A stretch of DNA of 64,000 bases, taken from assembly GCA_947561395.2 (NCBI GenBank), contig OX387188.1, positions 11,062,061 to 11,126,060 of the forward strand. Reading direction: 5' to 3'. The notes under the pieces are model-generated. The model was given only the letters and a program-made list of their open reading frames with translations. It searched no databases and had not been told where the DNA came from. The DNA is from Buxus sempervirens. Its lineage: Eukaryota > Streptophyta > Magnoliopsida > Buxales > Buxaceae. A program made the position numbers and the translations under genes. How positions within the stretch are numbered: position 1 is the first letter of the stretch; every line of letters starts with the position of its first letter. Positions 20,470 through 52,690 of this stretch are shown one piece after another.

Positions 20470-20616
20470 TTGTATCCGACAACTCAGGTGGGATACAAGC
20501 ACTCTTCTTCGTATCCGACATAAGTTGTCGGATACAAGCAGCCTTTAGTGTATCCGACATCATATGCCGGATACATTAAGGTGCTCATGTATCCGACCTG
20601 ACATGTCGGATACATG
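20470..20616. repeat. Cluster of four TATCCGA palindromes in G 5' LTR
   Basis: Palindromes at 20,470-20,498, 20,511-20,535, 20,550-20,574 and 20,586-20,616. Outer arms also match within units (TTG..CAA, CATG..CATG). They lie about 100 bp into the LTR and 165 bp upstream of the TATA box. Confidence 0.9.
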
Positions 20617-20780
20617 CTTTTTTGCTCAAAATTAGGGTTTTCTGAGAGTTTTCACCTTTTACCATCATATCCTTCATTAAAGGAATGGAAATCTTGGAAA
20701 TAGCCTTAGGGTTAAGGTTGGTGGGCTATAGACATTATATTGTGTCTACCATCCCACCAACCCTAACCCTAGCCATTGCC

Positions 20781-20790
20781 TATAAATAGG
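20781..20790 (+). promoter_or_regulatory. TATA box of G 5' LTR
   Basis: GCCTATAAATAGGAGGC, repeated in the 3' LTR at 41,758-41,765. Transcription of the element probably starts some 30 bp downstream. Confidence 0.75.
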
Positions 20791-22762
20791 AGGCTCCTCC
20801 TTAAGCAAATGGCCATTAATTCTTGTCATTAACTCTTGAGATCAAAGAGCTCCGAGTGAAGAGGGAAACCGTTGCAGTCTTGCTCCCAGAAGCCCAGGTA
20901 AGCCTCAAACCTCTCTTTATTTTTCTGTCTTTACATTCTAGATCTAGATCTCTTCTTCTACCTTTCTGTAGAATAAGGCCTCTTCTATGTGTGTGAAAAC
21001 CCTTCCCCTACTCAAAGTACCTCGAGACTCCCCCTAGCCGTAAAACGTGAACGCGGGATCTAGGGGAAATGAGACTGAGGATTGATCATAGTATTAGAAC
21101 CTCTTTTGAATGAGCCTTGCGATTCTATGAAAACCGTTCCATATTCAAAGTACCCCAAGATTATCTTGAAGAACCGTGTTTAACGGGGAGAGAGAACTAA
21201 GGGAAACGGTAATGGGACGGAACCCTAGGTTGTTCTAGAACCCTTTTGATTAATCTAAATGCATGCTATGTGTTATCATAAGCCTTGTGATTCTATGCAA
21301 ACCGTTCCATGTTGAAAGTACCCCAAGATTATGTTGAAGAACCGTGTTTAACGGGGAGAGAGAACTAAGGGAAACGATAATGGAACGGAACCCTAGGTTG
21401 TTTTTAGAACCCTATTTTGATTGATATGAATGCATGCTATCTTTGCTATGTTGTTGGAATGGTTCTTACATCTACACATACATAGCACGTGATTTTGGCG
21501 GGATAGGCTCATATTTCGGATTTATTGCATTTATTGTGATAAATCTGAAATAAATAGCCCCAAGCAATTCTGGGATGTTTTTAAATGATTTTCAAAGGAT
21601 TTTGATCTATCTTGCACGGATCACACACCTTTTATCACTGTTTTGAGTTATTTTTATTCAAAAAAGGCTTAACTTGACAGCAACTGTACCCCAACTTCGG
21701 ACACTCGTAACTTCATCGTCCGGATGAATTTTGGAGTGATTCCAGAGCCATGGGAAAGGTGGAGCTGTATAGTTTATGCCTGTAAAATTTCATGAATTTC
21801 TATCAAGCGGATTTTTGACACCTCTCTGTCGAAGTTGATAGGTCAGTTCAGGTCTGAATACGGAACTTGTCACTTCGACTGAGCGCCATGTGTTCGTTTT
21901 AAGTCCGATTCGAGTGATTCTTGTTTCTGCGTTTTCCTTTGGAAGTCTAGTTTCAAATTCAGTTCGTTTCATAATTTTTTGGCTCCATTTTCGTTGTTGG
22001 TAACAGATTTACTCAGAGCTGTTCAACAGCACTTTTCTGGGTAAATCTGTGATCTTTGGGGCCTGTTCAGGAGATCACCCAAGGCACATCCAAATGAATT
22101 TTTGTATGAGGCTAGTTTCATCTGAAGATGGCCATACATACTTCATTCACACCAAATTTCATGGATGTATATGAAGCTAATTTTTCTAAATGATTTTCCA
22201 AAGTTGCCCACTTATCACTTTTAACCATCTCCAGCAGCAGATTTTAAAGGAGCATAACTCCTTGGATTTCAACCGGATTTAATTGAAATTTTGCATGAGT
22301 CTCTTATTTACCATAATCTTTCAAATGGATTTGGTTTGAGTCAATTTAAAATTGGATTTGAATGATTTCAAGACAAATGGTTCTTGCTTTTACCGAATTC
22401 TCCGGATTAAACTCAACTTGGTTTTGTTCAACTTTTGCCTTGATTTCCATCTTTTGGTGATATTCCAGAAGTGATATTGACGTAAAAGAAGATCTGGAAT
22501 TCATTTGGATTTTCATGTGAAGATATCATACATTTGTCCCCGTTCATAATCTAATCCCCTTACCCATCTCTGGATTTGATTTTCAAGTAGAGTTATTTTT
22601 ACTCTAGTATTTGCCTTTTAGCTCTTTTTGATTATTTTTGAATCTTTTGGTGTCCATTCACACCCCAAAAATCTGAATGGTGGCGACTCTTCCACATTTT
22701 ACGTTGAGCCCGTGTGTTGACGGAGGGAAATCCTCCCAGTGATTTTTCCCATGTCTCACAAC

Positions 22763-22781
22763 TGGCGACTCCACTGGGGAC
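22763..22781 (+). promoter_or_regulatory. Primer binding site of G
   Basis: TGGCGACTCCACTGGGGAC, two bases after the LTR end. This is the tRNA-Arg-type primer site reported for Ogre/Tat elements. Confidence 0.8.
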
Positions 22782-23039
22782 TTGTGGATTTAAGCCATTT
22801 TGGTGTTTTGTTTATGCTTTTCGTTACTTTTGAATGCTTGCTATTTTTATTTTTATTTTTCTTGCATGTTCGATGTGCCTTAGATCTGATTCAAATACTG
22901 AGAAATTCATATGAATAGAGGCATGTATGTATTGTGTGGTTATGGCTAAAATCATGTTTGAGTGCCTTATCGTGTCACATATGTTTGCTTATTACATTGT
23001 TAAGAGAGCATGCTTGGTTTTGGGGATATATGAACATGT

Positions 23040-23715
23040 TTTGATCATGAGCATAAGGTCTGGAAATTCAGTGTAGTTTTTTGGTTCCCAAGCATGTCTT
23101 CCATGATCAATTATTGCTTGTACCATATGATTGATTACTTACTGTTTTTTTTTATGGCATGCCTTAAATTTGGGGTATGGGATGACATGATTTGAGCATG
23201 AAAACAATGAGCAGAAATTCTAAAATGCTTGGTGGGAATTTTTGGGATTTTCAAGCATATTTTCCCTAGCTAAAAGGCTTCTTGTATCATATTGTTAGGT
23301 GCTGTATTTTTAGGCTTGGATTTGGGCATAAAACAATGTCACTTGAGCACAAAAGACGAAGAATACAAAATCTGGAAATTCAGTAGCTATTTGGAGGGTT
23401 TTCAAGCATATTTTCACCAACAAAACCTTTCTTGTACCATGTTAAGTAGTTGCTGTATTTTAGGCTTCAATTTGGGGTATAAACAATGCAATTTGAGCAT
23501 GAAAATGAGACCATAAACCCAGGATTCAGTAGAGGTTTTTGTGGGTTTTTTTTAAGCATGTTTCCCTGGTTAAAAGATTCTTGTACAATGCATATAGTTG
23601 CTGAATTTTTAGGCTTCAATTTGGGTAAAAATAATGCACTTTTGAGCATGAAAAAAAGAGCATGAAATCTGGAAATTTAAGGGATGTTTTGAATTTTACA
23701 AGCATGCTTTTCATG
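23040..23715 (+). repeat. Diverged tandem repeat, about 150-160 bp x 4, in G leader
   Basis: AAGCAT(A/G)TTTTCC... followed by CTTCTTGTA, GTTGCTGTATTTTTAGGCTT, AATTTGGG and TTGAGCATGAAAA recurs from about 23,091, 23,252, 23,402, 23,553 and 23,700. It is old and imperfect. The function is unknown; Ogre untranslated regions are known to breed tandem repeats. Confidence 0.75.
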
Positions 23716-24676: not shown

Positions 24677-24817
24677 TTAACCGACAACTCAGGTCGGTTA
24701 AACAGAGTTTTATTCATATCCGATATACTTCGTCGGTTACAAGGGCTTATGCGTGTATCCGATCATTTGTATCGGATACAATAAGACATAGCCTTAGCCG
24801 ACATATTATGTCGGATA
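24677..24817. repeat. Cluster of four TATCCGA palindromes in G leader
   Basis: Palindromes at 24,677-24,701, 24,717-24,739, 24,754-24,780 and 24,795-24,817. The first has changed arms that still pair (TTAACCGA/TCGGTTAA), and the third has ATCCGAT/ATCGGAT. This is the only cluster without an obvious TATA box beside it; it precedes the minisatellite and gag. Confidence 0.85.
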
Positions 24818-25104
24818 CATTCAAAAAATGCACAAATTGGCTTTTCAGCCCAAATTTTCAGAATAAAATGCCTAAAATACTGTGGATAATCCTTAGGCAC
24901 CCTAGAAAAGAACATAAAAATGTTCCAAAAATACAAAATGAAAATAAATAAATAAATAAAATATTCTTTCATGATTTAACCTAATTTTGAAATTCATGAA
25001 GGCAAACTAAGGTGTCATATTTTTTGATACCAATTCAATTCAAACATGTTTCAATCAAGCTTTTGAACTTGAAAACTGAGAAAATTCAGAAGAAAAAAAG
25101 AACC

Positions 25105-25931
25105 TTTGGTTGGTTATTTTTATCAATCAAAATCAAAAAAATTTGTGGGACACTTGGAAGCCCTAGAATATTCCAAGAAACCTTTAGTTGGTTATTTTTA
25201 TCAATCAAATCAAAACATTTGTGGGACACTTGGAAGCCCTAGAATATTCCAAGAAACCTTTGGTTGGTTATTTTTATCAATCAAATCAAAACATTTGTGA
25301 GACACTTGGAAGCCCTAGAATATTCCAAGAAACCTTTGGTTGGTTATTTTTATCAATCAAATCGAAACATTTGTGAGACACTTGGAAGCCCTAGAATATT
25401 CCAAGAAACCTTTGGTTGGTTATTTTTATCAATCAAATCAAAACATTTGTGGGACACTTGGAAGCCCTAGAATATCCCAAGAAACCTTTGGTTGGTTATT
25501 TTTATCAATCAAATCAAAACATTTGTGGGACACTTGGAAGCCCTAGAATATTCCAAGAACCTTTGGTTGGTTATTTTTATCAATCAAATCAAAACATTTG
25601 TGGGACACTTGGAAGCCCTAGAATATCCCAAGAAACCTTTGGTTGGTTATTTTTATCAATCAAATCAAAACATTTGTGGGACACTTGGAAGCCCTAGAAT
25701 ATTCCAAGAAACCTTTGGTTGGTTATTTTTATCAATCAAATCGAAACATTTGTGGGACACTTGGAAGCCTTAGAATATTCCAAGAAACCTTTGGTTGTTT
25801 TTATCAATCAAATCAAAACATTTGTGGGACACTTGGAAGCCCTAGAATATTCCAAGAAACCTTTGGTTGGATATTTTTTCCAATCAAATCAAAACATTTG
25901 TGGGACACTTGGAAGCCCTAAAATATTCCAA
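25105..25931 (+). repeat. 76-bp minisatellite, 11 copies
   Basis: The unit runs from TTTGGTTGGTTATTTTTATC through AACATTTGTGGGACACTTGG to CCAAGAAACC. Copies start at 25,105, 25,182, 25,258, and so on to 25,862. Most are over 95% alike; the first and last are the most diverged. The unit length is not a multiple of three, yet the array is open in several frames; the predicted repeats look like nothing known and are probably not protein. It lies in the leader just upstream of gag. Confidence 0.97.
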
Positions 25932-26106
25932 CAAAAACAAAAAAAAAATAGAAAAAAATAAAAAAAATAAATCTGGACTTGTGTTCACCTAACCTACTTG
26001 TCTACATTTATAGGGGTGTGACTCAAGTTAAATGGAAGCTGACATGTGTCTTTGCTTTTCCTTCCCAGGTACATTCACTTGCAATCATTGCTCCCGTGAC
26101 CAGATC

Positions 26107-27520: not shown

Positions 27521-27525
27521 ATCTG

Positions 27526-28160: not shown

Positions 28161-28167
28161 GGAGGAG

Positions 28168-34467: not shown

Positions 34468-36236
34468 CTAGTCTCTGTCTCCTAGCTGCTTCTCAAGCTC
34501 CCGAATCCGAGCTGCCTGAGCCGCAATAACTCCAGAAGCCCCCTCTGCAGCGGGATCACTCAAGAAGGAAATAACCTCATCTGAAAGGGTCTGGCTGATC
34601 CTCATGCTCCTAAGGCTGGCTAAAGTATCCTGGTGCTTCTGCCTCAAGCCTCGGACTTCAAGACAGCGAGCCTGCCTCTGCTCCTCAAGTTGCTTTTCCA
34701 TAGCAAGACGGCGGGATACCTACTCTGCAAGTTGCCTCTCCATGTCAAGGCCCCGTATCCTAAGCTCCTGGGCCTCTCGTACCCAAATCTGCTGAAGGCG
34801 CTTGTGAGAAGCTCTCTCGGACTCCAGAATATCTTCATAGGTGGGAGCCAAAACTACAGGAAGATCTTCAGGTACTGGAGCCTGACTCTGTATCTGCTTC
34901 CTGATCCAGAAAAGATAGTCGTTCACATGGGACTTTGAGAAGACCGGGCTCCGCATAAAACGGACATAGGACCACTCCCTCATCAACCAAGTAGTCAGCT
35001 ACATGGTGGCTGGTGAAAGTGGCCCAAGGTGGTCCTCATATCCACTGGGGATTATAATCCCCTGGGTCGCTCTGAACTGACGAAGTACCCGCAAAGGAAG
35101 GTAAAGCACAGCATGCCCCAATCCAGCCAGGACCAAAAAATTGCGGTCTCAAAAGCTGATCACCGTCTCAGCATTAGGCTGATAAGTACTAGGCCACCTC
35201 ACCTGATCATCCTGAAGTGTAGCCAAGAAAGAAAACCAGCCCTGTTTACCCCCTGGAATGTCAAGACACCCCAGGTTGCTCATCAAGATGGGAACTTTTC
35301 AAGCTTGGGAAGAAGTGTCGATTGATCTCCTCAATCTGACTCAGGTGGTCAAGTAGCCAAAGCTGCAAAGGAGGAGGGATATTTCAGTATATTGTAAAAA
35401 AGAAAAAAAACGAAAAGCAAAAAAAAAAAGCAAAAAGCAAAAAAAAAAAAAAATACCTGCAGGATAGGTGCACATGACAGGAAACGCTTCTTCTTCCTGT
35501 AGTAACAGTCAGTCAGAGCCTGGTACATCCCTGCCAAAATCATAGGGGCCAATCTCTCCCGCTCCCTAACCTGGCATACAACTGAGATAAGGGCCAAGTC
35601 TACCTCATCGTCATCCCGGGGGAAAAGCAGTTGATTAACCACTATCAGGGTCAGGGCATTGAACCTAGCTTCCTTGTTCTCCCCCCTCAAGAGCTTCTCA
35701 GTCATAAAAGACTTAGACAGAGTCAAAAGGGTGTCAGAATCCCCTAAATCCTTCTTCCTTATGCCTAAGAAAGTAGAAGCCTCTTTTTTGTAACTGGGCT
35801 TAAGGGGTGGGTTCACTACCCTCTCTGCAAACCTCAAGCCCAAAATGGTTTCAACCTCTTCAATGGTGGGGGTCATCTCATGGTCGCCAAAACGAAAAAG
35901 GTTTAGGTCCGGTACCCAGTGGCCAATCATGGCTTCAATAATTTCCCACTTGAATGGGATGGAGGGGATAAGCAAAGTGTGGCCTAATTAAATAGAACCC
36001 CATCCAATCTCTTCATCAAGGGTCATGGAGTTGACCCACCTAGTGTAGAATGAATCTGCAGGGCTGTACCTAGTGAGATTAGGGGGTTTTGCTCTAAAAG
36101 GTTGTTTTGCAGGGGAGGCTGCGTGGACAGACAATGGTAGGGCAGAAGATGATCCGGAATCCATTGGAGGTGATGGGAGCAAGCTAAGAATCAATGGGAG
36201 GAAGAAAAAAGCGAAAAAGGGGTTTTCTAAACTCAA
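34468..36236 (-). pseudogene. Antisense DUF7745-like gene within G
   Basis: Read right to left, a short variable N-terminal region (serine/proline-rich) is followed by a domain with 'FKWEIIEAMIGHWVPDLNLFRFGDHEMTPTIEEVETILGL'. That is the hallmark of the plant DUF7745 family, often found in and near retroelements. A 94-bp GT-AG intron (35,363-35,456) precedes 'LWLLDHLSQIEEINRHFFP'. The C terminus is a coiled coil ('MEKQLEEQRQARCLEVRGLRQKH', 'AARIRELEKQLGDRD'). The start lies about 60 bp downstream of a palindrome/TATA module, so it appears to have its own promoter. It is broken a few times. Function unknown. Confidence 0.7.
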
Positions 36237-36292: not shown

Positions 36293-36435
36293 TGTATCCG
36301 ACAACTCAGATCGGATACAAAAGATTCTATTCATATCCGATGAAGTATGCCGGATACAAGGAGATGTTAATGTATCCGACATATCATATTGGATACAAAG
36401 AAATATCAATGTATCCGGTCTGATATGCCGGATAC
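36293..36435. repeat. Cluster of four TATCCGA palindromes before the DUF7745-like gene
   Basis: Palindromes at 36,293-36,319, 36,334-36,356, 36,371-36,397 and 36,410-36,435. The last has changed on both sides to TATCCGG/CCGGATA and so stays self-complementary. Spacing is about 38-39 bp. Confidence 0.88.
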
Positions 36436-36624: not shown

Positions 36625-39428
36625 CTACTGCTCCTGTGCAGGATCACCCCCGCGTCCTCTGCCACGCGCTCTGCGGCCTCTACCTCGAGGTGACAGGCGC
36701 CTAGAATATGCAATGAGGCACTCGGCCATGTAGCGCGGTCTCCGACCCACAATGGACTGAAGCTGGTACTCCCAGCAATAATCCTCGAGGTCAGGAGGCG
36801 GATCAGGAGCAGAATCTGGCGAAGAAGCCTCAGGCCCAGCAGGAACAGGCTCGGCAGGCTGGGGAGCCACCTCCGTCGCAGCTGAATCCTCAGCCGCGGC
36901 AGTCTCAAATCCTGCAGCTCCAGAAGGCTCGGCAGCAGTAGAGGAAGGACCAGGAACAGAAGTATCTGGGTCAACAGAAAGGGTCAGAAGCAGAAACATC
37001 AAAATAAACCAAGGAGAGGAAACTAAAGAAGACTTACCAGGGATCTCAGGAGCAAGATCAGGAGCCGCTATAGGAGATGAGGTGCCGACAGGGTCTGCAG
37101 GAGCCATAGGAATGGCGAGTACAAGAGATGCGACTGGATCAGGGTCAGCAACAGGGATGTCCTCTGGCTCGGGAACCACCACTGAAGAGGAAGGGCCCAC
37201 AGAATCCGCAGGAGCAGCCACCACCGAGTCAGCAGCTGGGGCATCCATAGGATCAGCAGCCCGAACTGGAGATGGATCAGGAACAGGGAAACCGGGCTCA
37301 AAGGCAGCATCCTGATCTAGGACTGGGCCCTGCAAAAGCCAAAACAGTTTATATCAGAACAACAGAAACATGGAAATGAAAGAGATGAAATTATAAACCA
37401 GATACCTGTCTAGCCTGAAGCTCAGCAACCAGAGCCTCCAGCTCTCTAATCCGGGCATCCCTCTGGGCCATGACCGCATCATGCTCTGCGATCATATCAT
37501 CCACTGCGGCCCGCTGACTCAGGAACCGATCCCGGAGAGCATTCAACTCATGTACCTGCCAATAAGAACCGAATCAGAGTAAAAAATACAGGATTGAAGG
37601 AAATGGGATAAAAAAATGAAAATCATAAAACTCACAGTATCATCATGAACCCGGATGTAGATCCCGCCGATCTTTGTCACTCCAGCACGGGTGGGTCGAT
37701 CCATCAAGCACCCAATGGATACTCTCTGGATCCACTCGTCGTAATAACCCGCAGCAGTAAGTAACTCCGCATCCTCCCACTGATCAAACTGGGCCACGTC
37801 AAATCCGGGCAAGAGAATGGTAAGGCCAACGGGTGGTGGAGGAACCGGGATACGGAGGACGCCAGTGTGCTGGAAGTACAGGCGCTCGCCTAAGTACACA
37901 ATCCTACCAAGTCTCCCAATGAAACACTGGTAGGACTGGCATCGTGCATCTAGCTCAAAGGCATCCTGCACCATCTCCTGACGAGCAACCTCGTCATCCA
38001 CATCGTTGAAGCGGGCCAGTATCAGCTGCAATCACAATAAAAAGTGTCAGATGCAAAGGCGGTATAAAAGAATGGAGAATATTGAAGGGAAAAGAAAATT
38101 TACATCAGAGCGGCGAGAGCGGTCTAAATGCGCCCGGGTCGACCGCGGCTAGCTCTTGTCTGCATCTCTGTCCAAGACAGACCATCATATAGCTACGGGA
38201 AACTCTGCGGCGCCAGGCACAGGAGAAGGGCGGAAATAGGTCATGTATGAATACATGAATATCTGGCAAAGAAAGAAAACAAGTTAGAAAGAGATAAAAG
38301 AATTTCAAGGAATTAAGTCAAAATATTCCTTACCTGCAAGATCTGCTAGAAAAATCGGCAGCTGATACCATCTCCCCTCGGAGCAACTAGACCTCGGATG
38401 ACTCGGCTCAGACCGGCTAATATAGTCCCATATATCAATCGACCCCAAGCTAGCCGCCTGGTCTGCCGAAGGTCCCTCAGGGCATCCAAGAAGACAGGAC
38501 TGACCGACGTCATATCCTCCTGGAAAAAGCAGCTGCCCAACATCAACAGGAAGACCCGTCGAAATAGAGGGACGAAACCGTCATCAGCCTCGGTAATAAT
38601 AGCATGCCTCCGGTCAGGATGATCAACAATGCTGCCGCGCAACCAACTAATAGAAATCCGGCCACTCCTGCCATCCCAAGCAGTCTCAGGAAGATCCTCA
38701 TACCCTAGGAGGGTGCCAATGTCCGCAGCACGCTCCATCTCTATGGTCCTACCCGTCAAGGGGATGCCAGTAAGCATGACAAAATCTGACGGACGAATCC
38801 CCAGCTCAACATCCGGCAGATGGAAAGTCTGTGTGTCGGGGAAGTACCGCTCCAGCATGGCAAAGATGAGAGGGCGGTCAGCTCGAAATGATGATATAAG
38901 CAGGAAATGGTCAAAACGACATCTGCGGAACTCCCGTCTGAGTCCGGGAGATAGGGTCTGATACAGCTCGCAAAACTTTCCCCAACTACCTCTCAGGTGA
39001 GAAGGGGGATACTGAAGGGGAAGATCTGCTCGGACACACATCGAAGGATGATGATCCAATCCACTAAGAAGCTCGGTGTCCTGAACAGATGCCCTCAAAT
39101 CCGCAGGAAAAGCCAAACGGAATCCCCTAGCATCACCTCCAATGATCGGATCCTGAGCCGCACCTCTGGCTCTGCCACGTCCTCGGCCTCCCTCACCCTC
39201 AAGGGCCTGATCCTAAACTCTGCCTCGGCCTCTGCCCTGACCTCGAGCAGGAGCAACAATGGGCTAAAATTCAAAGGAGAAGTGTGAAGGTTGGTGTATA
39301 AAGAGAATAGAAGGAGGGAAAGGAAAATAGGGAAAGCCTACCTCAGCAGAACCCTCTCCAGAGCTCTCTCTGGAAACATCTAACGGCTCTGACAGGGTGG
39401 CGCTAGCTCGGGAACGACTCCTAGCCAT
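36625..39428 (-). pseudogene. Antisense Plant Mobile Domain gene within G
   Basis: A multi-exon gene on the minus strand with about seven exon-like blocks between 39,428 and 36,625, bounded by GT-AG introns that keep a common phase. An N-terminal arginine/glycine-rich stretch precedes the PMD ('aminotransferase-like, plant mobile domain'), visible as 'LRGSWGKFCELYQTL', 'RCRFDHFLLISSFRADRPLIFAMLERYFPDTQTFHLPDVELGI', 'DFVMLTGIPLTGRTI' and 'WLRGSIVD'. Then come a helical block, a coiled coil ('DARIRELEALVAELQARQ'), a Pro/Ala/Ser/Asp-rich region and an RGG-like tail ('RGRGRRARGRGRGG'). PMD occurs in host proteins MAIN and MAIL1 and in transposons. The element probably captured it. At least one break is present. 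It has its own upstream promoter module. Confidence 0.8.
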
Positions 39429-40705
39429 CTATAGACAACAGGGCAGTATTTTAAGTTTCTGTTTAATGTTAAAAGATTTATCGGAAATTTAGACCACTAG
39501 GTGTTCTCACTTCTAATATTTTCTAATCCTAAGAATACCTGCAAGATTTAATCCTTAATTATTTTGTTGTGATTTCAGGATATACTCATGGAGGTAGAAT
39601 AAAAGCAAAAGTGAGGATTGAAAAAACAGAAATGGCAAGCCAGGTCGGAAAGTCAAGATGAATTGGAAAAATTTCACAGCAGGGTATGGTGATGGGCAGT
39701 CCACCATCAATAATTGGCAAAATCTGAAAATCATGCCGACGATGCATAAGCAAGAGATATAATCAGCAATATCAGCAATAAACCATCTGAAGGTATCAGA
39801 TAATGCCAGTAAAAAGTGAAGCTACTATTAAGTGATCAATCTTGTGGAATTATTAATCGTGGATAGAAAAAGAAAAAAAAGAACAACAAATAGCATGGCA
39901 TCGGAAAACTCCACTATCATTGATAAAAACTGTTGAAGGACAGCAATTCGGGTGGAAATCAATATCCTCAGTGTACGGGCAATCGATTGTTCAGGAGTTT
40001 AACACAGTAAAAATGTGCTTGCTTACCCGGTCCGATCGACAAAAGCTATCAAAAAGCACAAACAAGCAATGCAACATTCTCAGTTACTCCCAATTGGAAA
40101 GCATGGTTGCAAGCCTCAAGGCATCATACTCAGCAGTAAACAAATGAAGTGCACGATTAAATTAAAGCCACTGTTAACAGTTCCAAGGGAGAATGGGCCA
40201 GGAATTTACCGAATCAAAGCAAGCTACATGGCATGTCACTAAGTCTGAAAGCTTTACTATCAACAGAATTGAAAATGCAAAATTAGAGAATCATGGCATG
40301 ATTGATTTGGGGATTTAATCGCAAAGTGCAAAACAGAAAAAAAAATCTCTGAAGGTAAGCATGCTGACCCGGTTGATGGATGCACAGTGTGGTATGGCAG
40401 GAGCAAATGTGGAATCAATGTGAAGAAGGGCAGGCCGTCGGAATCCAGAGACGATCACCGGAGATCAGCACTCCGACGCCAAATCGTGGATTCACCGGAG
40501 ATCAGCAAATTCGAAACGAGCTAGGGCTCGCCCACCACATCAAATGAACAATTGCCAGGGGGTTTAGTCCTCGCCGGAGTCAATAGAAGTCGCCGGAGTT
40601 GGTGGAAATAGTCGGAAGTCGCCGGAGAAGAAAGGAGAGTCGTCGGGGACGAAGGAGAATGAAGACGTACCTTGGGTTTGCAATCGGAGAAGAAGAAAAG
40701 AAGAG
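39429..40705 (-). other. Leader exon and first intron of the antisense PMD gene
   Basis: A short untranslated exon (about 40,671-40,705) ends in CCCAAG|GTACGTC. An intron of about 1.24 kb ends at 39,429 with TATAG immediately before the first ATG. H has the same arrangement (intron 53,050-53,911 ending GTAG|ATG). No other coding signal is seen in this stretch. Confidence 0.6.
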
Positions 40706-40710
40706 GAAAA

Positions 40711-40737
40711 GTCGCGGTCGCGCGCGACTTATATAAA
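40711..40737 (-). promoter_or_regulatory. Core promoter of the antisense PMD gene (TATA plus CG motif)
   Basis: On the minus strand TTTATATAAG (around 40,730-40,737) is followed by GTCGCGCGCGACCGCGAC (40,728-40,711). The H copy has CTATAATAC followed by GCGCGCGCGACCGCGAC at 52,663-52,690, so this CG motif near the expected start site is conserved between elements. Confidence 0.7.
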
Positions 40738-40741: not shown

Positions 40742-40805
40742 TGTATCCGACGAAGTATGTCAGATACACAGGAGTTATCTCTTATCCGACATCCTACGTC
40801 GGATA
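40742..40805. repeat. Pair of TATCCGA palindromes before the PMD gene
   Basis: Palindromes at 40,742-40,768 and 40,783-40,805 lie about 4 bp upstream (minus strand) of the TATA box. Confidence 0.85.
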
Positions 40806-41346: not shown

Positions 41347-43389
41347 TGTAGACACCCCAAATTGCACAGTAAAAATGAAGAATAATTAGCAAAAATCATT
41401 ATCTCCTTTGAAGCCAGCACAGAATTTGAGAAAACAAGCTTTTTTCTTGTATCCGACAACTCAGGTCGGATACAAGCACTCTTCTTCGTATCCGACATAA
41501 GTTGTCAGATACAAGCAGCCTTTAGTGTATCCGACATCATATGCCGGATACATTAAGGTGCTCATGTATCCGACCTGACATGTCGGATACATGCTTTTTT
41601 GCTCAAAATTAGGGTTTTCAGAGAGTTTTCACCTTTTACCATCATATCCTTCATTAAAGGAATGGAAATCTCGGAAATAGCCTTGGGGTTAAGGTTGGTG
41701 GGCTATAGACATTATGTTGTGTCTACCATCCCACCAACCCTAACCCTAGCCTTTGCCTATAAATAGGAGGCTCCTCCTTAAGCAAATGGCCATTAATTCT
41801 TATCATTAACTCTTGAGATCAAAAAGCTCCAAGTGAAGAGGGAAACCGCTGCAGTCTTGCTCCCAGAAGCCCAGGTAAGCCTCAAACCTCTCTTTATTTT
41901 TCTGTTTTTACATTCTAGATCTAGATCTCTTCTTCTACCTTTCTGTAGAATAAGGCCTCTTCTATGTGTGTGAAAACCCTTCTCCTACTCAAAGTACCTC
42001 GAGACTTCCCCTAGCCGTAAAACGTGAAGGCGGGATCTAGGGGAAACGAGACTGGGGATTGATCCTAGTATTAGAACCTCTTTTGAATAAGCCTTGCGAT
42101 TCTATGAAAACCGTTCCATATTCAAATTACCCCAAGATTATCTTGAAGAACCGTGTTTAACGGAGAGAGAGAACTAAGGGAAACGATAATGGGACGGAAC
42201 CCTAAGTTGTTCTAGAACCCTTTTGATTAATCTAAATGCATGCTATGTGTTATCATAAGCCTTGTGATTCTATGAAAACCGTTCCATGTTCAAAGTACCC
42301 CAAGATTATCTTGAAGAACCGTGTTTAACGGGGAGAGAGAACTAAGAGAAACGATAATGGAACGGAACCCTAGGTTGTTTTTAGAACCCTATTTTGATTG
42401 ATATGAATTCATGCTATCTTTGCTATGTTGTTGGAATGGTTCCTACACCTACACATACATAGCACGTGATTTTGGCGGGATAGGCTCATATTTTGGATTT
42501 ATTGCATTTATTGTGATAAATCTGAAATAAATAGCCCCAAGCAATTCTGGGATGTTTTTAAATGATTTTCAAAAGATTTTGATCTATCTTGCACGGATCA
42601 CACACCTCTTATCACTGTTTTGAGTTATTTTTATTCAAAAAAGGCTTAACTTAACAGCAACTGTACCCCAACTTCGGACACAAGTAACTTCATCGTCCGG
42701 ATGAATTTTGGAGTGATTCTAGAGCCATAGGAAAGGTGGGGCTGTATAGTTTATGCCTGTAAAATTTCATGAATTTCTATCAAGCGGATTTTGGACACCT
42801 CTCTGTCGAAGTTGATAGGTTAGATCAGGTCTGAATACGGAACTTGTCACTTCGACTGAGCGCCATGTGTTCGTTTTAAGTCCGATTCGAGTGATTCTTG
42901 TTTCTGAGTTTTCATTTGGAAGTCTAGTTTCAAATCCAGTTGGTTTCATAATTGTTTGACTCTATTTACGTTGTTGGTAACAGATTTACTCAGAGCTGTT
43001 CAACAGCACTTTTCTGGGTAAATCTATGATCTTTGGGGCCTGTTCGGGAGATCACCCAAGGCACATCCGAATGAATTTTTGTATGAGGATAGTTTCATCT
43101 GAACGATGGCCATAAAAACTTCATTCACACCAAATTTCATGGATTTATATGAAGCCGATTTTTCTAAATGATTTTCCAAAGTTGCCCACTTATCACTTTT
43201 AACCATCTCCAGCAGCAGATTTTAAAGGAGCATAACTCCTAGGATTTCAACCGGATTTAATTGAAATTTTGCATGAATCTCTTATTTACCATAATCTTTC
43301 AAATGGATTTGGTTTGAGTCAATTTAAAATTGGATTTGAATGATTTCAAGATAAATGGTTCTTGCTTTTACCGAATTCTCCGTATTAAA
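41347..43389 (+). mobile_element. G 3' LTR
   Basis: Starts TGTAGACACCCC and matches the 5' LTR up to about 43,389, where F's LTR sequence resumes. It is shorter than the 5' LTR (about 2.04 kb against 2.39 kb). Its TATA box is at 41,758-41,765. Confidence 0.9.
41446..41593. repeat. Cluster of four TATCCGA palindromes in G 3' LTR
   Basis: Same four units as in the 5' LTR. The first is a perfect palindrome here (CTTGTATCCGAC/GTCGGATACAAG, 41,446-41,476), and the last spans 41,563-41,593. Confidence 0.92.
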
Positions 43390-43621
43390 TGTTTATTGAG
43401 GATTTTAGACTACACTTCCGCACATACTTGTTTCCGCAACTCTGATAGTATAATAAAGCAATGGATTTTATTACTTTGGTCTGGTATATTATTGATGATG
43501 TATTTGATATGGGCTGGTAACACCTCGGATTTGGTTGTTGAGCTAAATTCAGGTTGTTACAGTAGCGAACCGGGTTCGGGTCGGGTGCCGGTTTGGACTG
43601 ACCCGGGTTCAGGGCGTTACA
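43390..43621 (+). mobile_element. F 5' LTR, right end
   Basis: Matches 48,481-48,715 of the 3' LTR and ends AGGGCGTTACA at the primer site. Part of the LTR found in the 3' copy is not represented on either side of G. Confidence 0.9.
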
Positions 43622-43625
43622 GAGA

Positions 43626-43637
43626 TGATATCAAAGC
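43626..43637 (+). promoter_or_regulatory. Primer binding site of F (degenerate)
   Basis: TGATATCAAAGC resembles the initiator-Met site TGGTATCAGAGC, just after the LTR end. Confidence 0.65.
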
Positions 43638-43746
43638 AATGGTCCTAACCTTAGATTAGCTAGCTTTAGGGGAATGGGATTGTGAGTACGCTAGATAGAA
43701 CCCCTAGAATTATTGGATTCTGACAAGTGAATTTGTAATTTTGCAG

Positions 43747-44490
43747 ATGGCTGGTAAAGGAAGACGTGCTAGAGCTGATCCTATTGAGGAGGAGCAGCAG
43801 GATGTTCCATTACCTCCACCACCTCCAGGGGGTGATGTGTGGACTGTTGTTAGCAGCTTGGCAAAGCTTCTTGCCAAGGAAAGGGTGGAGAGACTGAGCC
43901 AGCACGGCAATGGTGGAAATGGTGGCAATGGTCACGGAGATGAGCCTGTACATGAGAGGGCCATACATACGGCCAAGGATCTTGAGCAGTTCAGGAAATT
44001 GGATCCACCTATCTTCATTGGACGTCCAGATCCTATGGAGGCTGAGAGATGGCTGATGCGAGTCGAGTGGATTTTTGAGGCTATGGGATGCCCGATGGAC
44101 CAGAGAGTGCGCTTGGTAGCATTCTTGTTTGAGGGAGAGGCAGTTCACTGGTGGACAGCCAGGAAGAGGCAGGATCCACAGGCTACGTACATGACATGGG
44201 ATAGATTCCGAGAGGTCTTCTATGACCAATACTTTTCTGAGGAAGTCCGACTTAAGAAGTAGCGGGAATTCATGGAGATTACTCAGGGAAGCCAGACAAT
44301 GGCTCAGTACGAGGCTAGATTTGCAGCCTTGTCCCGATTTGCACCCCACATGACACAGGATGAGAGAAGGCTGACTTCACACTTTGAGCGAGGTCTGAAG
44401 CTTGAGATTAAGAGTATACTGACAGTACTCTTGTGCACCGAACTGAAAGATGTGGTGCGTAGAGCCACCAGAGCAGAGCTAGACCACCCA
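43747..44490 (+). pseudogene. F gag region
   Basis: Tekay-type gag. A variable start is followed by 'FRKLDPPIFIGRPDPMEAERWLMRVEWIFEAM', 'RVRLVAFLFEGEAVHWWTA', 'TWDRFREVFYDQYF', and then 'ITQGSQTMAQYEARFAALSRFAP' and 'EDERRLTSHFERGL'-like phrases. It is preceded by the short leader after the primer site. It is a fossil with breaks. Confidence 0.9.
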
Positions 44491-45275
44491 TGAGGCCGGC
44501 AGATCAGAGAGGTTTCCTTGGTGGAAACAAGAGGCCCAGAGACTGGACTAGGGCGGAGCCTGCAGGAGAACAGTATAGGCCATCTTCGAAGGTATGTGCC
44601 AGTTGTGGCAGATACCATGTACCTGGACCGTGTGTCGCAGCACCGGGCACTTGTTACAGATGCGGAAGGGCGGGTCACAGGATCACGGATTGTCGGTTCT
44701 CTCCTAGTTATCAGCCGTTAGCAGTGCCACGACCAGCATTACCACAGCTAGAGATCGTGCCTGCTTTCCCACAGAGGCCATAGTTTCAGCAACCAGCTCA
44801 GAGGGCACCGGTTGGGCAAAAGCCCCAGGGCAGAGGACCAGTTCAGAGAGGAGGCCAGAGGCAGGCAGTACCTGCTCAGCAGCCGCAGCCAGTGAGGGTA
44901 TATGCAGTGGATGCACATGAGGAGCATGAGCCCGATCGTATGGAGGATATCGAGGTTGATCACGAGGCACCTGAGCTGATTGGAGGTATTCTTTTCATCT
45001 CTGGTAGATCAGCATGTGTTTTGTTTGATTCTGGTGCTTCCCATTCATTTATATCACCTGCTTGTGCACAACGGATTGGTTTGTCACCCACTGAATTGGA
45101 TGTTGCATTGTCTGTACACACACCTTTGGGAGAGTCTACTAGAGTCGAACAAATGTATAGCGACTGCATGATTAGATTGGGTAGATTGGAGTTGTCTGGC
45201 AATTTGATTGCCTTAGACATTAGAGGTTTTGATGTGATATTGGGGATGGACTGGCTATGTAGACACCATGTGACC
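44491..45275 (+). pseudogene. F zinc knuckle and protease region
   Basis: A CCHC knuckle (CYRCGRAGHRITDC) follows basic, Gln/Pro-rich sequence. After that the aspartic protease is seen as 'LFDSGASHSFISPACAQRIGL', 'RLGRLELSGNLIALDIRGFDVILGMDWL'. The order is that of Tekay chromoviruses. Confidence 0.9.
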
Positions 45276-46142
45276 ATGGATTTTGTATCTGGGTTACCAT
45301 TGACAGCAAAGAAATAAGATGCTATTTGGGTTGTTGTGGATAGACTGACTAAGTCAGCACATTTCTTGCTTATGAGCACTACATAGCCGTTGAAGTCTTT
45401 AGCTGAGTTATATGTCAAGGAGATAGTGAGACTTCATGGAGTACCAGTTTCCATAGTGTCTGACAGAGATGCACGATTCACGGCACGCTTTTGGCTTGCA
45501 TTTCAGGCAACCTTAAGAACTAAGCTTAATTTCAGCACTAGCTATCATCCTTAGACAGATGGACAGTCTGAGCGTACCATTCAGACATTGGAAGACATGC
45601 TGAGATGTTGTGTTATGGATTGGGGAGGCAGTTGGAATCAGCACCTACCATTGGTGGAGTTTGCCTATAATAACAGCTATCAGGCGAGTATTCAGATGGC
45701 ACCATTTGAGGCACTTTATGGCAGATCGTGTAGATCCCCAGTGTGCTGGGTGGAGGTTGGAGAAAGACAACTTATTGGGCCTCAGATTGTACAGGATAGC
45801 ATTGAGAAGGTGAATCAGATTAGGCAGAATATGCTTACAGCCCAGAGTCGTCAGAAGAGCTATGCAGATACCAGAAGAAGAGACTTGCATTTTGAAGTTG
45901 GTGATTTGGTATTTCTGAAGATATCACCATCTTGTGGGATTAAGAGATTTGGAAAGAAAGGCAAGTTGGCTCCAAGATATATAGGTCCATTTGAGATTAA
46001 GGGTACAATTAGACCAGTAGCATACAGATTGGCTTTGCCTACACAGCTGGAAGGAGTTCATGATGTATTCCATGTTTCTATGTTGAGAAAGTACGTGCAT
46101 GACCCTACTCATATCATTCAGCATGAGCTGATAGTAGTGTGA
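45276..46142 (+). pseudogene. F integrase region
   Basis: Integrase core and C-terminal part: 'MDFVSGLPLTAKK', 'WVVVDRLTKSAHFL', '[18 protein letters not shown]', '[42 protein letters not shown]', and '[11 protein letters not shown]'. RT and RNase H are not recognised anywhere in F. Confidence 0.9.
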
Positions 46143-46320
46143 GGGGACTTGACTTATGAGGAGCATCCAATTGAGATTTTGGACATGAAGGAACAGGGTC
46201 TTCGTACTAAGGTGATTCCACTTGTGAAAGTACTTTGGCAGAATCACACAACTGAGGAAGCTATTTGGGAATTGGAATCGGAAATGCAGAGAAAGTATCC
46301 TAACCTATTTTCAGAACCAC
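46143..46320 (+). pseudogene. F chromodomain
   Basis: 'ILDMKEQGLRTKVIPLVKVLWQNHTTEEAIWELESEMQRKYPNLF' is the chromodomain-type tail that defines chromoviruses. In living elements it helps target insertion to modified histones. Confidence 0.88.
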
Positions 46321-46350
46321 AAGGTAAATTTCGAGGACGAAATTTTTCTT

Positions 46351-46364
46351 TTAAGAGGGGAGGA
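46351..46364 (+). promoter_or_regulatory. Polypurine tract of F
   Basis: TTAAGAGGGGAGGA directly before the 3' LTR; the same tract occurs in M at 58,569-58,582 (minus strand). Confidence 0.85.
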
Positions 46365-48715
46365 TGTAAAACCCCGAATTTTCCTTAAATAATAAATTAA
46401 ATTAATAAATAATATTATTGAGAGTTATAATTGATGGAAATATTTTATTATTGTAGGGGATGATCTAATTAGTGGAGATCCAGAATTAGACGCAGATCTG
46501 ACCGTCCGATCATGAGATATCGAGGTATGTATTCTGATTGGGCAGGGTGTATAGGGAAGTTATAGGTGAGATGCATGTGATCAAAGAGTATAAATACCTA
46601 TTAAAATAACCTAAACGTATTCTTTGTAATTTGCTCGTATTGACTAGCCGCAAGCGACAACCTTGAACAAACGAGCGACCGAAGGAGAAGAAGAAGAAGA
46701 GGAAGAAGGAAGGGTGCTGGGTTGAGTTCTTCATCGTCCAGGGATTACCTCGTGCCTGTGAGAACTCTTGTTTGGAGAAGAAGGAGAGAAACCAGCATAG
46801 AAGAGGTAGGTGACACTGTTTTATTCGATTGATTTGTATTTACGTCCGTTTAATCGCAAAAGCATGTTTTTATGATATGTAATGATGTGTATAGTTAGAT
46901 AATCATGTTATAAATATGTTAGAATGAGTTTAGACGAGAAAAATCATGTTTTGGAACTGATTATGTTCGTTTTCGAACGACCGCCGACCTCGACTGTGCT
47001 CGGTGATCGTCGGCGATCGTAGGTGCTCGTTATAAACTGTAGACTGCCGTAGACCGCTTGAAGACGTACCGTCGGCGTTCGATTTTGAACTACCGCCCAC
47101 CACAGACTGCGGGGGCGATCCTGAGCGATCCTAGGCGCTCTGTTCAGATTTTGCAGATTTTCGTAATTTCACATCCTGATTCAATTCCAAACTATTTTTA
47201 GACAATTTTAATGATTAAATAAGATGTTTTAAGACTAAAATAAATTATCTAATTCCCTGTTTTACAGAAAAATAAATTAGGAAGGTATTTAGGACATTAG
47301 TCGCCAAACTTTGAAAGAAATGGAGAAACCTAGTTTTTGGAAAACCTAACTAGTATTTCATTACTAGAACATCTTCTAAATGACATTATAAACCCGAAAA
47401 CTTTATAAAGAGAATTTAGAATTCAGATGACTGAATATTGAAGTAATTGACAGATTTAACCTTTATATGCCACTAGGCACCAACCCTTATAGAAATATTA
47501 TATTTTAGGGAATTTTGGAGTCTAGTGGGCATAGCTGGTTATGGATCCATAGTTGTAGCTAGATAGCTGAGGGATATGTCATTTGGGTTGAGTTACTCCT
47601 ATATGCGACGCACTTTCTTTGCAAGTTAGTTTGTCTAGGAAGGTCCTATGTCTGGAGGGACACCCCGGTGAGCCGCTGGTGATTCCCTGTACATATGGAT
47701 AAGCGACCATCTCCATGTATTGATTCTGGTGCTGCATGCTGGTGGTACATGCCAACTCTGATGGGTACGTGTGCAATAAGTCAGTGACTACGGCTCTTGT
47801 CTAAGCTGCGCTGCATGGGACTTGAGTATCATTAGTAGCATTGCTCCTAAGTCGCACGGTAGTATAGCAATTGGTTGAGAATCATCTCAAAAGGTTTATC
47901 TATCTTTGTGAGTCCTATAATGACATTGAAATCACAATACTTGATATTATTAGTGTATACATGCTGGAGGCATGTGATTGAGATATTGGCTGGATGCGAC
48001 TGCTTAGTGCATCCTAGCAAAGTATGAATTATGTTATCGATCTTGATATTGGATTCTTATATTATAACATGCTGAAATTCGTTTCTAGAACTGTTTATCA
48101 AACTGTTTTGTATTCATGAATGATTATACGAGCCTGATTAGTCGATATTGCTTAATCGTGCATGAACTGTTACTTTACTTATATTAACTGTTTAATCATG
48201 CATGTGTTACCTACTGGGATATTCGTATCTCACCCTACTTTTATTTCATTTTTCAGCTGATACGCGAGAAGGGGATCTTAGTGATTTCCAGGGAGAGGTA
48301 GCTGATTATACACCAGAGGATTACTATTATCCGGATCTTGTTTGAGGTGGATGATTGATATAGACTTAGTACTTTTGATTGGATTATTATTCATTTGGAT
48401 TCAATGTACTAGAGAGATGATAGAGATAGTAACCAGTTTATTTTACCAGACTTTGATATTAACGATTGATGATCAACTTAAATGTTTATTGAGGATTTTA
48501 GACTACACTTCCGCACATACTTGTTTCCGCAACTCTGATAGTATAATAAAGTGAATGGATTTTATTTCTTTGGTCTGGTATATTATTGATGACGTATTTG
48601 ATATGGGCCAGTAACACCTTGGATTTGGTTGTTGAGCTAAATTCGGGTTGTTACAGTAGCGAACCGGGTTAGAGTTGGGTGCCGGTTTGAACTGACCCGG
48701 GTTCGGGGCATTACA
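46365..48715 (+). mobile_element. F 3' LTR
   Basis: 2,351 bp from TGTAAAACCCCG to GGGGCATTACA. It is uninterrupted and serves as reference for the split 5' LTR and for LTR L of M. The CpG word island is at 46,973-47,140. Confidence 0.93.
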
Positions 48716-49375
48716 CAGGGTAACCTAACCAGGTCTATTTTGGTCTACGGCTTGAGATTCTAGCTAAGTGCTCGGTTACGGTACCGGGAAGTCCGAAGAC
48801 TCCCCGGTCCACCCTCCCGGTTCGGCGGGTCCCTTGGGTCACCCTAGTTTGAGTCAACTATACTCACCCTTATCCTATTCTAGCATGTATCAGATTAAGT
48901 TTGGTGGGACTTTCCGTAAGTCCCTTTTTATTTTGATTTTATCTTATTAACCTCTTATTAAGTGGGTCGGGTATGGGCCCTGTTGGAAGACCCATGGGTA
49001 GCCAAGTTGGGCTTTTAAGTCAAGCCTATGGCCCATTAGGGTTATTGGGTAACCCTTGTTGAATTTGGTTAATTTGGTTTTGAATTATTTTAATCATGCA
49101 AATTAGGCGGGTTTAAGATTTTTAAGGCCCAACAGGTTTGGATTGACCCATGGGTAATTATCCAAGTGACCCATGACCCATTTATGAGAAATGGGCTTTG
49201 GTGTGGGCCGGGCTGATGGTGGGCCCTGTTGGAGGGCCCACTAAAGCTTTGATGGGTCCAAATGGACCCAAGTCTAAAATGTGCTTAGAATGATCTAAAA
49301 GCCCAATGGGTTTAGCTTGTATCAAAATGGGTCGAATTAGTCCGACTCAGTCCATGAAGGGGGTTTAAGGGTATG

Positions 49376-50732: not shown

Positions 50733-50757
50733 GGCAAACAAAGAAATACCATATACT

Positions 50758-50927
50758 AAATGCGGTCACTTGTTGACTGTATTTAAAATGCTGTTCGGCT
50801 TTGACTGCATTTAAATCGTCCAAGATCCGCCAGCTGTCGCCAGCTGGGGACAGCTGGTGGTCTTCTAGAATGTTGTGACTGTAAATACATTGCGGTCAAA
50901 CTTTGACCGCAATGTATTTGCGGTCAA
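50758..50927. repeat. GCGGTCA/CAGCTG palindrome cluster upstream of the LTR I TATA box
   Basis: A partial palindrome at 50,758-50,784 (AAATGCGGTCA/TGACTGTATTT). A perfect one at 50,830-50,857 (CCAGCTGTC/GACAGCTGG). A perfect one with 18-bp arms and a single central base at 50,883-50,919. An overlapping palindrome at 50,903-50,927 (TTGACCGCAA/TTGCGGTCAA) shares an arm with it. Position equals the TATCCGA clusters in related LTRs. Confidence 0.9.
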
Positions 50928-51848
50928 CACGTGCAAAATATGCACGGATGCCAAATTTTATCCAATTTTGTTGATTTTCGGATTTATATCCGATTTTTCA
51001 TTTATTTTAATTTTGAAAAAAAAAGATATTTTTATTATTTTTAATAATAAATGAAAAAAAATTTATTTATTTTGTCCTTTTCTGCTTTTTTGCTGCCGCA
51101 CAGGCAGTTTTCTTGAAACTTTGACTTGCCATAACTTTTCCGTTTGATGTCTAATTTGAGCAAACTCAGTGTCGTTGGGACCAGTGTGAGATTCCCTATC
51201 CACTGAACTTGGGTTTAGCAGCGAACTGAGATTTTTAGCAGAAGTGAAAAACTGTTACCTGGAAGTCAATTTTTCTCATATCTTTTAATCCGGGACTCCG
51301 ATTCCGGCAAACTCAGTTGCGTCGGACTCGTGTCGAGATTCTCCATCCAATGGTATGAAGTTTGGCAGATGAATTGGGATGTATCAGAAAGCTAATTTCT
51401 GTTATTTACAGGTTTGACCAGCCCATAACTTCCTAATCTGGACTCCGATTCCAGCAAATTCAGTTGCGTTGGGATCGTGTCGGAAATCTCTATCGGATTC
51501 TAGCAAATTCAGGACCCCGATTCTAGCAAACTTGATTGCGTTGGAATCGTGTCGAAGTGCTCTCTTTGCTGGGGCCAGGTTAAACAACTGATCTGGGTTT
51601 TAGCAGAAAGTCGATTTCTGCTATTCCCAATTTTGACCACTCCACAACTTCTTTATCTAGACTCCGATTTGGACAAACTTGGTGTCGTCAGAACCATATC
51701 ATAATCCTCTATCCAATGGTATGAAGTTTGGTGGTCAATTCGCACCAGATCCAAAAGTCAAAATTTTGACCCTTTCGGGTTTGACTTTTCAATTAGGATT
51801 TTCATTTTTGGCATTTTCGGTGTGCAAAAATGAGGTGCTGACAACATG

Positions 51849-52184
51849 GACTTGGAAGAATATGGTTAATCTCGGAGGCTAAATTCGGGAATCCCCACTT
51901 CTCAGACAGAGGTATAACAGTAAATAAGTGAAAACTCTCGGGATTTTCCAATTTGCAACAAAACATTAGTATCCGACAAAATAGGTCGGATACAAACAAC
52001 ACTCTTTGTATCCGAAATTAAATTTCGGATACATTGAAAATTGTTTGTATCCAAAAATAGTTTTTGGATACAGAGAACTACTCTTTTATCCGAATTTTAA
52101 TTTCGGCTACAAAAGAAAAACTGTTTTTTAATGCTTTTGGCCAATTATTCCTCATTTTTCACAGTGTAATTTGGGGTGTCTACA
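51849..52184 (-). mobile_element. H 3' LTR, upstream (U3) part
   Basis: Plus-strand end GGGGTGTCTACA at 52,184, the reverse of TGTAGACACCCC. It carries the palindrome cluster 51,969-52,109. It was separated from its TATA box (18,811) by solo LTR I. Confidence 0.88.
51969..52109. repeat. Cluster of four TATCCGA-type palindromes in H 3' LTR
   Basis: At 51,969-51,993, 52,007-52,033, 52,046-52,072 and 52,087-52,109. The second is CCGAAAT/ATTTCGG and the third CCAAAAA/TTTTTGG, both still fully self-complementary; spacing is about 39 bp. Confidence 0.9.
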
Positions 52185-52197
52185 ATTGCCCCTCTTT
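52185..52197 (-). promoter_or_regulatory. Polypurine tract of H
   Basis: The minus strand reads AAAGAGGGGCAAT before TGTAGACACC, like G at 41,334-41,345. Confidence 0.75.
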
Positions 52198-52332
52198 GCT
52201 GGAATTGCAAAACAATGAGTAGCAAAGATTAGACAAACCCAAATTGCACTCCGTTAACCATGATTTGCCTTGTTCAATTTAATTTCGCAAAACAGTTTTG
52301 GGTGAAGATTTGCCAAAAAGCCCTAACTTTAA

Positions 52333-52348
52333 GGGGGGGGGGGGGGGG
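52333..52348. repeat. G16 homopolymer
   Basis: Sixteen consecutive G. The matching place in G (about 41,190) is a short C/T mix, so the run is peculiar to H or is a base-calling artefact. Confidence 0.8.
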
Positions 52349-52631
52349 CATTTCTCCAAGCTGTCTTAAATTCCACTGAGCTCTAATGGCTATGAGGTGG
52401 ATTTTAAGACCAAAATATAAGATTTTTGAAAAATCGATTTTGTAGCAAACTATGTTAAATTATCTCAAAATTGAGTGAATATTCCGTTTGACCAACAATA
52501 TATACATATGTATAAACTTTTTTTTTCTCTCTTTTGTTTCTTTTTTTCTGTTTTCCTTCTCTCTTTTTTTCTTCTTTTTTTTTCTTTTTTATGTATCTGA
52601 AATAGATGTTCGAATATGCAAACCTTTATTT

Positions 52632-52690
52632 GTATCCGACATGAATTGTCGGATACGCCTAGCTATAATACTTGCGCGCGCGACCGCGAC
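52632..52690 (+). promoter_or_regulatory. Promoter module of the PMD gene in H
   Basis: In order: a perfect palindrome (52,632-52,656, TATCCGAC/GTCGGATA), a TATA-like CTATAATAC (52,663) and the CG motif GCGCGCGCGACCGCGAC (52,674-52,690). A pyrimidine tract lies at 52,510-52,595, and a decayed second palindrome near 52,591-52,620. The arrangement matches the PMD promoter in G. Confidence 0.75.

Follow-up and report, generated by a model that had tools for sequence, protein, structure and literature searches.

Phased palindromic dyads beside sense and antisense promoters of a Ty3/gypsy-type retrotransposon in Buxus sempervirens: candidate sites for a shared dimeric factor

The stretch of Buxus sempervirens DNA analyzed here (64,000 nucleotides of contig OX387188.1, positions 11,062,061 to 11,126,060; hereafter the window) contains a Ty3/gypsy-type element, G, a remnant on the opposite strand, H, and a solo long terminal repeat (LTR), LTR(ii). 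These elements carry arrays, usually of two to four units placed 39 bp apart, of a 23-bp dyad, TATCCGA-N9-TCGGATA, which occurs with symmetric variants of its arms. Other copies in the genome support the view that one such module precedes both the sense LTR promoters and the separate promoters of antisense genes. We consider it probable (roughly 0.6) that the arrays are phased sites for a dimeric factor, serving the sense and antisense promoters jointly.

Element G has the composition of a Ty3/gypsy element, with gag, reverse transcriptase (RT) and integrase, RT preceding integrase, flanked by a pair of LTRs, designated LTR(i). Antisense frames with plant mobile domain (PMD) or DUF7745 matches are positioned between pol and the 3' LTR. 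The first-pass annotation, made from the letters of the window, called G a Tat element; we retain this as a presumptive label, in keeping with its architecture and the style of the primer site. The elements are laid out as follows.

20371..22760, +, 5' LTR(i) of G, beginning TGTAGACACCCC, 97% match to 41347-43389; its end at 22760 was set by reading, before the primer-binding-site-like ACTGGCGACTCC
From 26147, +, gag of G (Retrotrans_gag profile match)
Ending at 33085, integrase of G, preceded by RT (rve and RVT_1 profile matches)
35349..35987, -, antisense DUF7745/PMD frame (DUF7745 3.7e-20, PMD 4e-13)
38346..39212, -, antisense PMD frame (PMD 7e-12)
41347..43389, +, 3' LTR(i) of G; the match to the 5' LTR runs to 43389
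434..3380, -, solo LTR(ii), TGTAAGCACC...GTGCACA, with the 5-bp target duplication ACAAG; ends placed by reading

Two of the four antisense frames scanned at E 0.01 were recognized as PMD or DUF7745 and two gave no match; TRP28 (PF04195) was not among the profile matches of these four frames. A search of three frames against NCBIfam gave no match, nor did a comparison by sequence of the PMD piece with PDB.

In the window, 32 dyads have a gap of exactly 9 and no more than two mismatches in the arms (14 exact, 12 with one mismatch and 6 with two; one of the 32, at 52709, is weak), against a total of 4 in 20 mononucleotide shuffles of the window. They lie in nine clusters, almost always spaced by exactly 39 bp, in agreement with the first-pass annotation, which had counted about 31 palindromes in nine clusters at these places. 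That annotation had given the palindromes as 23-31 bp long; the core is invariably 23 bp, and the range that it reported fits symmetric extension of the arms. The arrays, with the TATA boxes assigned to them by pattern and by reading, are these.

20473..20612, four dyads, U3 of the 5' LTR of G; TATA 20781-20787 (+), 168 bp downstream
24678..24817, four dyads, leader of G, about 1.3 kb before the gag frame; no TATA within 320 bp
36295..36434, four dyads, antisense DUF7745-like gene (ATG at 36165, by reading); TATA 36281-36275 (-), 13 bp away
40744..40805, two dyads, antisense PMD gene of G; TATA 40735-40729 (-), 8 bp away
41450..41589, four dyads, 3' LTR of G; TATA 41758-41764 (+), 168 bp
2543..2786, five dyads, array B of LTR(ii); TATA 2530-2524 (-), 12 bp away
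1427..1527, three dyads with TAT, TAG and GAT arms, array C of LTR(ii), with the TATA box about 1 kb upstream
51970..52109, four dyads, LTR of remnant H, whose downstream part is displaced by other LTR-like sequence
52594..52655, two dyads, PMD promoter of H, reading +; TATAATA 52664-52670, 8 bp, by reading

Thirty-nine-bp phasing, symmetric arm changes, concordance of arm type within elements and the gag-only relatives are additions to the first-pass annotation. In the whole genome (676.5 Mb), the spaced-dyad search that had been suggested from the window returned 8,620 exact dyads, against 64 for the reversed control pattern; gaps of 5-20 were permitted, and the gap was 9 in every match among the matches listed. 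Regularity was assessed in the window plus 20 stretches of 10 kb around the first-listed exact dyads on contig C1 (1.39-9.36 Mb), where L001-L004, which overlap L005-L007, were excluded from the counts of gap, spacing and TATA distance. When gaps of 0-30 were scanned with at most one mismatch, all 86 dyads in this sample had a gap of 9. The intervals between neighboring dyads less than 200 bp apart were exactly 39 bp in 75 of 86 cases and 78 bp in 4 of 86, and a dyad search blind to the sequence likewise gave 39, 78 and 117 as the commonest distances. The number of units is a property of the class: four in LTR(i), four in DUF7745 and two in PMD arrays.

By comparison of flanks, the 39 arrays split into four groups, which we read, with the TATA data, as likely classes LTR(i), LTR(ii)-B, LTR(ii)-C, leader, DUF7745 promoter and PMD promoter. 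A TATA box stands at a class-specific distance in 29 of the 39 arrays, is missing there in 9, and was not judged in one (the LTR array of H). Among 21 LTR(i) arrays, that of H included, the box lies downstream by 166-169 bp in 19 and by 157 bp in another. In all five LTR(ii)-B arrays it is 12-13 bp from the last in-phase unit (three distances direct; those of L010 and L014 derived from coordinates), in the DUF7745 gene 13 bp, and in the PMD gene 8-10 bp, where the value of 10 bp is that of a TATAA-like sequence placed by reading beside the PMD array of L015. For the window, the earlier distance of 12 bp in the solo LTR is reproduced, while the others shift slightly, from 165 to 168 bp in the LTRs of G, from 11 to 13 bp at the DUF7745-like gene, and from 4 and 7 bp to 8 bp at both PMD copies. 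The count of seven clusters out of nine upstream of a TATA box, given in the first-pass annotation, is in line with these results: the pattern used detects no box within 320 bp of two arrays, those at 1427-1527 and 24678-24817, and the distance of about 200 bp put forward for H, with the insertion discounted, stays presumptive. The broader proposal that the motif marks both sense LTR and antisense promoters holds in other copies, but not for the nine arrays that have no TATA box at the class distance; palindromes lying mostly away from promoters, which had been named as one outcome that would speak against it, were not what the sample contained.

Copies recovered by homology to the promoters gave the same picture. 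With a DUF7745 promoter query from which the array had been excluded, all 20 copies fetched among 40 scored matches (the window itself included) showed four units spaced by 39 bp, with the TATA box 13 bp away. With a PMD promoter query that retained the array, 40 places were scored and 20 copies fetched; every one of these 20 showed two units spaced by 39 bp, and TATATA, TATAAA or TATTTAA stood 8 bp away in 18. Ten elements had both of their ends read: all 10 showed a PMD array of two units, 8 an LTR array of four units, and 10 a DUF7745 array, with all four units detected in 8. A GC-rich near-palindrome, GTCGCGCGCGACCGCGAC, closely follows the TATA box of PMD promoters (window 40690-40735, minus; L045-L064; divergent L083-L090).

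Over about 152 bp, the arrays of the G LTR and of the DUF7745 gene can be aligned without inversion (74%), and they share an asymmetric first centre, CAACTCAG. Judged from this alignment, the two arrays are a single module in one orientation, with the TATA box on its right in the LTR and on its left in the antisense DUF7745 gene. Within the module, the arms are the constrained part. In 19 LTR(i) copies the differences from the majority per site were.050 in arms,.276 in spacers and.188 in centres, and in 21 DUF7745 promoters.065,.192 and.138, respectively; the spacers are thus about 5.5 times (LTR(i)) and 3 times (DUF7745) more variable than the arms, and their length is kept. The DUF7745 array had no distinct indel in 140 columns among 21 copies, versus 31 in 207 columns upstream and 6 in 105 downstream. 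In the 140 columns of the LTR(i) array there were one 14-bp deletion, one 39-bp deletion and one single-base insertion, with 16 indels in 109 columns upstream and 10 in 190 downstream.

Where an arm changes, its partner tends to change with it. TAGCCGA-N9-TCGGCTA occurs at 1,207 genome sites (control 1), and dyads with mixed T/G arms number 224 + 247 (471), against about 2,481 expected if the arms were independent. Units with the fixed centre CAACTCAGG, found at 923 + 944 genome sites (control 0), were symmetric in 96 of 100 among the matches listed, against 37 expected, with TAT, GAT, TAG, TAA and TGC as the symmetric arm types; the units are homologous, because this asymmetric centre is common to them. 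After identical units were collapsed, 60 non-redundant units showed clear coupling between arms at positions 1, 3, 7 and 8, weak coupling at -2 (p.036) and none at positions 9-11; when the full set of 311 distinct but related units was taken, it appeared at some flank positions too. The CCG core of the arm is nearly invariant. Changes in the sense RNA kept a pair as G-U in 37 cases and broke it in 31, and on this count, with the coupling map, symmetric arm change was dropped as proof of hairpins. Auxin-response (TGTCGG) and DRE (RCCGAC) sites, the two known motifs taken up as candidates, were set aside, as conservation does not reach the bases beyond the CCG core on which they depend.

A further regularity concerns base 7 of the arm, which is A in A-type arms and G in G-type arms (TATCCGG/CCGGATA). 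Twelve divergent PMD copies, taken from 135 scored matches and 71-79% identical to the PMD of G, were read for 1.5 kb upstream, and 9 of the 12 had a two-unit array at 39 bp. The sequence next to these nine arrays was a strict TATA box in 2 and degenerate or unjudged in 7. Seven of the nine were mainly G-type, L082 and L093 being A-type. In six G-type elements the 3' LTR arrays, which had played no part in the selection, were also G-type. Overall, LTR and PMD arrays agree in arm type in 16 of 17 elements (10 A/A, 6 G/G and one discordant, L070; Fisher p.0006, uncorrected for relatedness), where 9 of the 10 A/A elements are G plus copies recovered with its own A-type promoter as query. L093 enters with its own LTR, and L071, L082 and L086 stand outside the 17, with no LTR array in the sequence obtained. 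With L070 excluded, LTR half-sites numbered 69 A and 9 G in A-type elements and 39 G and 1 A in G-type elements, and PMD half-sites were A in 40 of 40 and G in 24 of 24, respectively. This concordance led us to drop the idea that base 7 is merely a tolerated position. Identity of the PMD to that of G did not by itself predict arm type in three 80-residue fragments: two G-type copies were 92% alike, and the A-type L082 was 82% and 86% like those two and 76% like G. The same arm variant in separate arrays whose spacers differ would most simply point to a trans-acting factor with a changed preference, travelling with the element.

The dyad also extends to relatives that seem to carry gag only. 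An end like that of LTR(ii), followed by a primer-site-like TGGCGACTC, occurs at 904 + 924 genome sites, suggesting many gag-only elements. Two of them, L065 and L066, have gag frames 38% and 49% identical to that of G and no match (E <0.001) to the pieces of G for RT, integrase, PMD and DUF7745; their 10 kb and 9 kb of sequence contained no dyad with up to three mismatches. Exact GAT and TAG dyads are present 78 bp apart at C1:8,422,865 and 8,422,943, about 1.1 kb before the internal start of L065, where array C of the 5' LTR would be expected to fall. An array in the LTR with none found internally, in an element with no recognized antisense gene, agrees with what is predicted if the arrays are read as promoter modules, on the strength of the two copies read.

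Each array may accordingly be pictured as a row of two to four sites for a dimeric, sequence-specific DNA-binding factor, whose dimers would take half-sites of about 8 bp (TATCCGAC). With the 39-bp phase, neighboring dimers would probably bind cooperatively. The array would be a promoter-proximal module able to serve a TATA box on either side, and the sense LTR, DUF7745-like and PMD units would all answer to a single factor. From the sequence we infer a transcription control site, protein binding, activation rather than repression, and co-expression of the units. Because arm type switches concordantly across LTR and PMD arrays, the data favor a factor encoded by the element over one host factor, by analogy with VANC in VANDAL transposons. 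More specifically, and only tentatively, one of the antisense genes (PMD or DUF7745) could encode a dimeric regulator that binds the dyads in the sense and antisense promoters of the element itself. If so, the element would possess its own feedback transactivator or anti-silencer; the specificity of this protein and its target sites would change together from lineage to lineage, and the gag-only relatives would exploit the same sites in trans.

Several observations weigh against the proposal of phased factor sites serving both kinds of promoter. Nine arrays, seven of class C and two of the leader class, lack a TATA box at any of the class distances. Conservation is not confined to the arms, as downstream flanks are also conserved (.077 for LTR(i) and.026 for DUF7745), and the indel contrast between the LTR(i) array and its downstream flank is modest (3/140 versus 10/190). 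The copies share descent, so that the counts are not independent, and the spacing may be partly inherited. Three of the 12 divergent PMD copies lacked a two-unit array in the 1.5 kb searched. L070 is discordant between its LTR and PMD arrays; its G-type array is just 120 bp from the A-type PMD array, off the usual LTR distance, and a nested insertion is suspected. The switch of arm type may also have been a single evolutionary event only.

A host origin of the factor has to be weighed in particular. The dyads could be sites of one host transcription factor, captured by the elements much as other LTRs make use of factors of their hosts, in which case the module would be real and no element protein would be involved. 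We think this rather doubtful, although the array is also present in LTR(ii), for which the two internal regions read have a gag frame and no match to the PMD of G, and no PDB sequence match indicates DNA binding by the PMD piece. A single host factor does not account for the lineage-wise agreement of G-type or A-type arms between LTR and PMD arrays, and the TAT, TAG, GAT and TAA arms, each symmetric within its unit, are left equally unaccounted for.

Alternatively, the arrays might be functionless by-products of tandem duplication and palindrome-making mutation during reverse transcription, with TATA distances simply inherited. The homology of the units through their asymmetric centre and the one clean 39-bp deletion are as such an origin would have them, and hairpin-templated correction is able to make arms symmetric. 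It is nevertheless unlikely, given that spacers vary far more than arms while their length stays constant, that unit number is specific to the class, that symmetry in the non-redundant units is strong only at the variable half-site positions 1, 3, 7 and 8, and that arm type is concordant between separate arrays. Least probable of all, to our mind, are hairpins in RNA or single-stranded DNA, acting in packaging, reverse transcription or small-RNA production. The sense genomic RNA of G contains all of its arrays, and both the deficit of mixed T/G arms and the symmetry of the fixed-centre units are what pairing arms would produce; yet pairing alone does not demand a near-invariant CCG core, G-U-keeping changes are no commoner than pair-breaking ones, and the fixed TATA distances on both strands and the 39-bp phase are left unexplained.

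Repeated promoter-region sites for a self-encoded regulator occur in the Tax-responsive 21-bp repeats in U3 of HTLV-1 and the subterminal repeats bound by TnpA of Spm. What differs here is that separate antisense promoters own copies of the array, and that the regulator is putative. In Arabidopsis, VANC, an anti-silencing protein that removes DNA methylation, recognizes motifs lying in tandem repeats of the VANDAL transposon that encodes it (PMC5735166, PMC10398659). The likeness lies in short motifs arranged as tandem repeats in non-coding parts, with targets differing between related elements, as was found here. The binding protein of VANDAL is encoded by the element, whereas the factor proposed for G is putative; VANDAL is a MULE-type DNA transposon and G an LTR retrotransposon, so the parallel is in working only; and the site here is a dyad of 23 bp, repeated with a fixed 39-bp phase next to TATA boxes.

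Retand and Grande elements have, like G, antisense accessory frames between pol and the 3' LTR, for which regulatory roles have been suggested; a promoter of its own has been reported for Grande gene23, and tandem arrays are common in the region from pol to the 3' LTR (PMC11963269, PMC7264820). The frames there are mostly TRP28, in contrast to PMD and DUF7745 here, and the parts consulted of these two papers make no mention of an array shared by the LTR and an antisense promoter. The PMD-A1/A2 proteins are PMD proteins encoded by Gypsy elements, treated by phylogeny and in connection with silencing by the host MAIL1/MAIN (PMC5418596); G is likewise a Ty3/gypsy element carrying a PMD gene, and the sections consulted give no target site for an element-borne PMD. 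The PMD proteins MAIN, MAIL1 and PP7L have been linked to the DOWN promoter motif, binding not having been demonstrated (PMC7156037, in the part consulted); here too PMD genes occur alongside a promoter motif. Among the matches listed in open-licence PubMed Central, there was no description of the motif or of a shared palindromic promoter module.

The role of antisense accessory genes and of element-borne PMD is left open in the consulted parts of PMC11963269, PMC7264820 and PMC5418596, and the question is opened to experiment by a defined dyad that stands at a 39-bp phase before each of the three kinds of transcription unit. If the element does encode its own regulator, LTR retrotransposons would join VANDAL DNA transposons in having sequence-specific self-regulation, and a single genome would offer thousands of sites already in place, which gag-only relatives share.

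Some additional features of the arrays and of their surroundings were noted. Mixed arm types inside a single array with no TATA box in the vicinity, as in array C, recur in L005, L006, L009, L019, L020 and L021; at the three loci where array C and the LTR(ii) TATA box were both seen (window, L009 and L021), the box is 1-1.5 kb upstream of the array. Leader arrays were seen in two elements (window; L016, 4068-4129), about 1.2-1.3 kb upstream of gag, and that of L016 has TATAAAA 94 bp away on one side. Between the leader array and gag of G there is a 76-bp tandem repeat in eleven copies (25101-25935), and both LTRs of G have an internal 168-bp tandem duplication (21113-21440 and 42087-42417). 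In the sequence inserted into the H LTR, at about 50980-51000 (minus), TCGGATATAAATCCGA has half-site-like arms flanking a TATA-like middle. Further pieces of retroelements occupy 43390-48718 and 56228-62145; they contain gag frames as well as integrase frames, have no dyad arrays and show long inverted similarity to one another. Outside the elements studied, there are tandem repeats of 163 bp at 17698-18250 and of 69 bp at 63063-63272.

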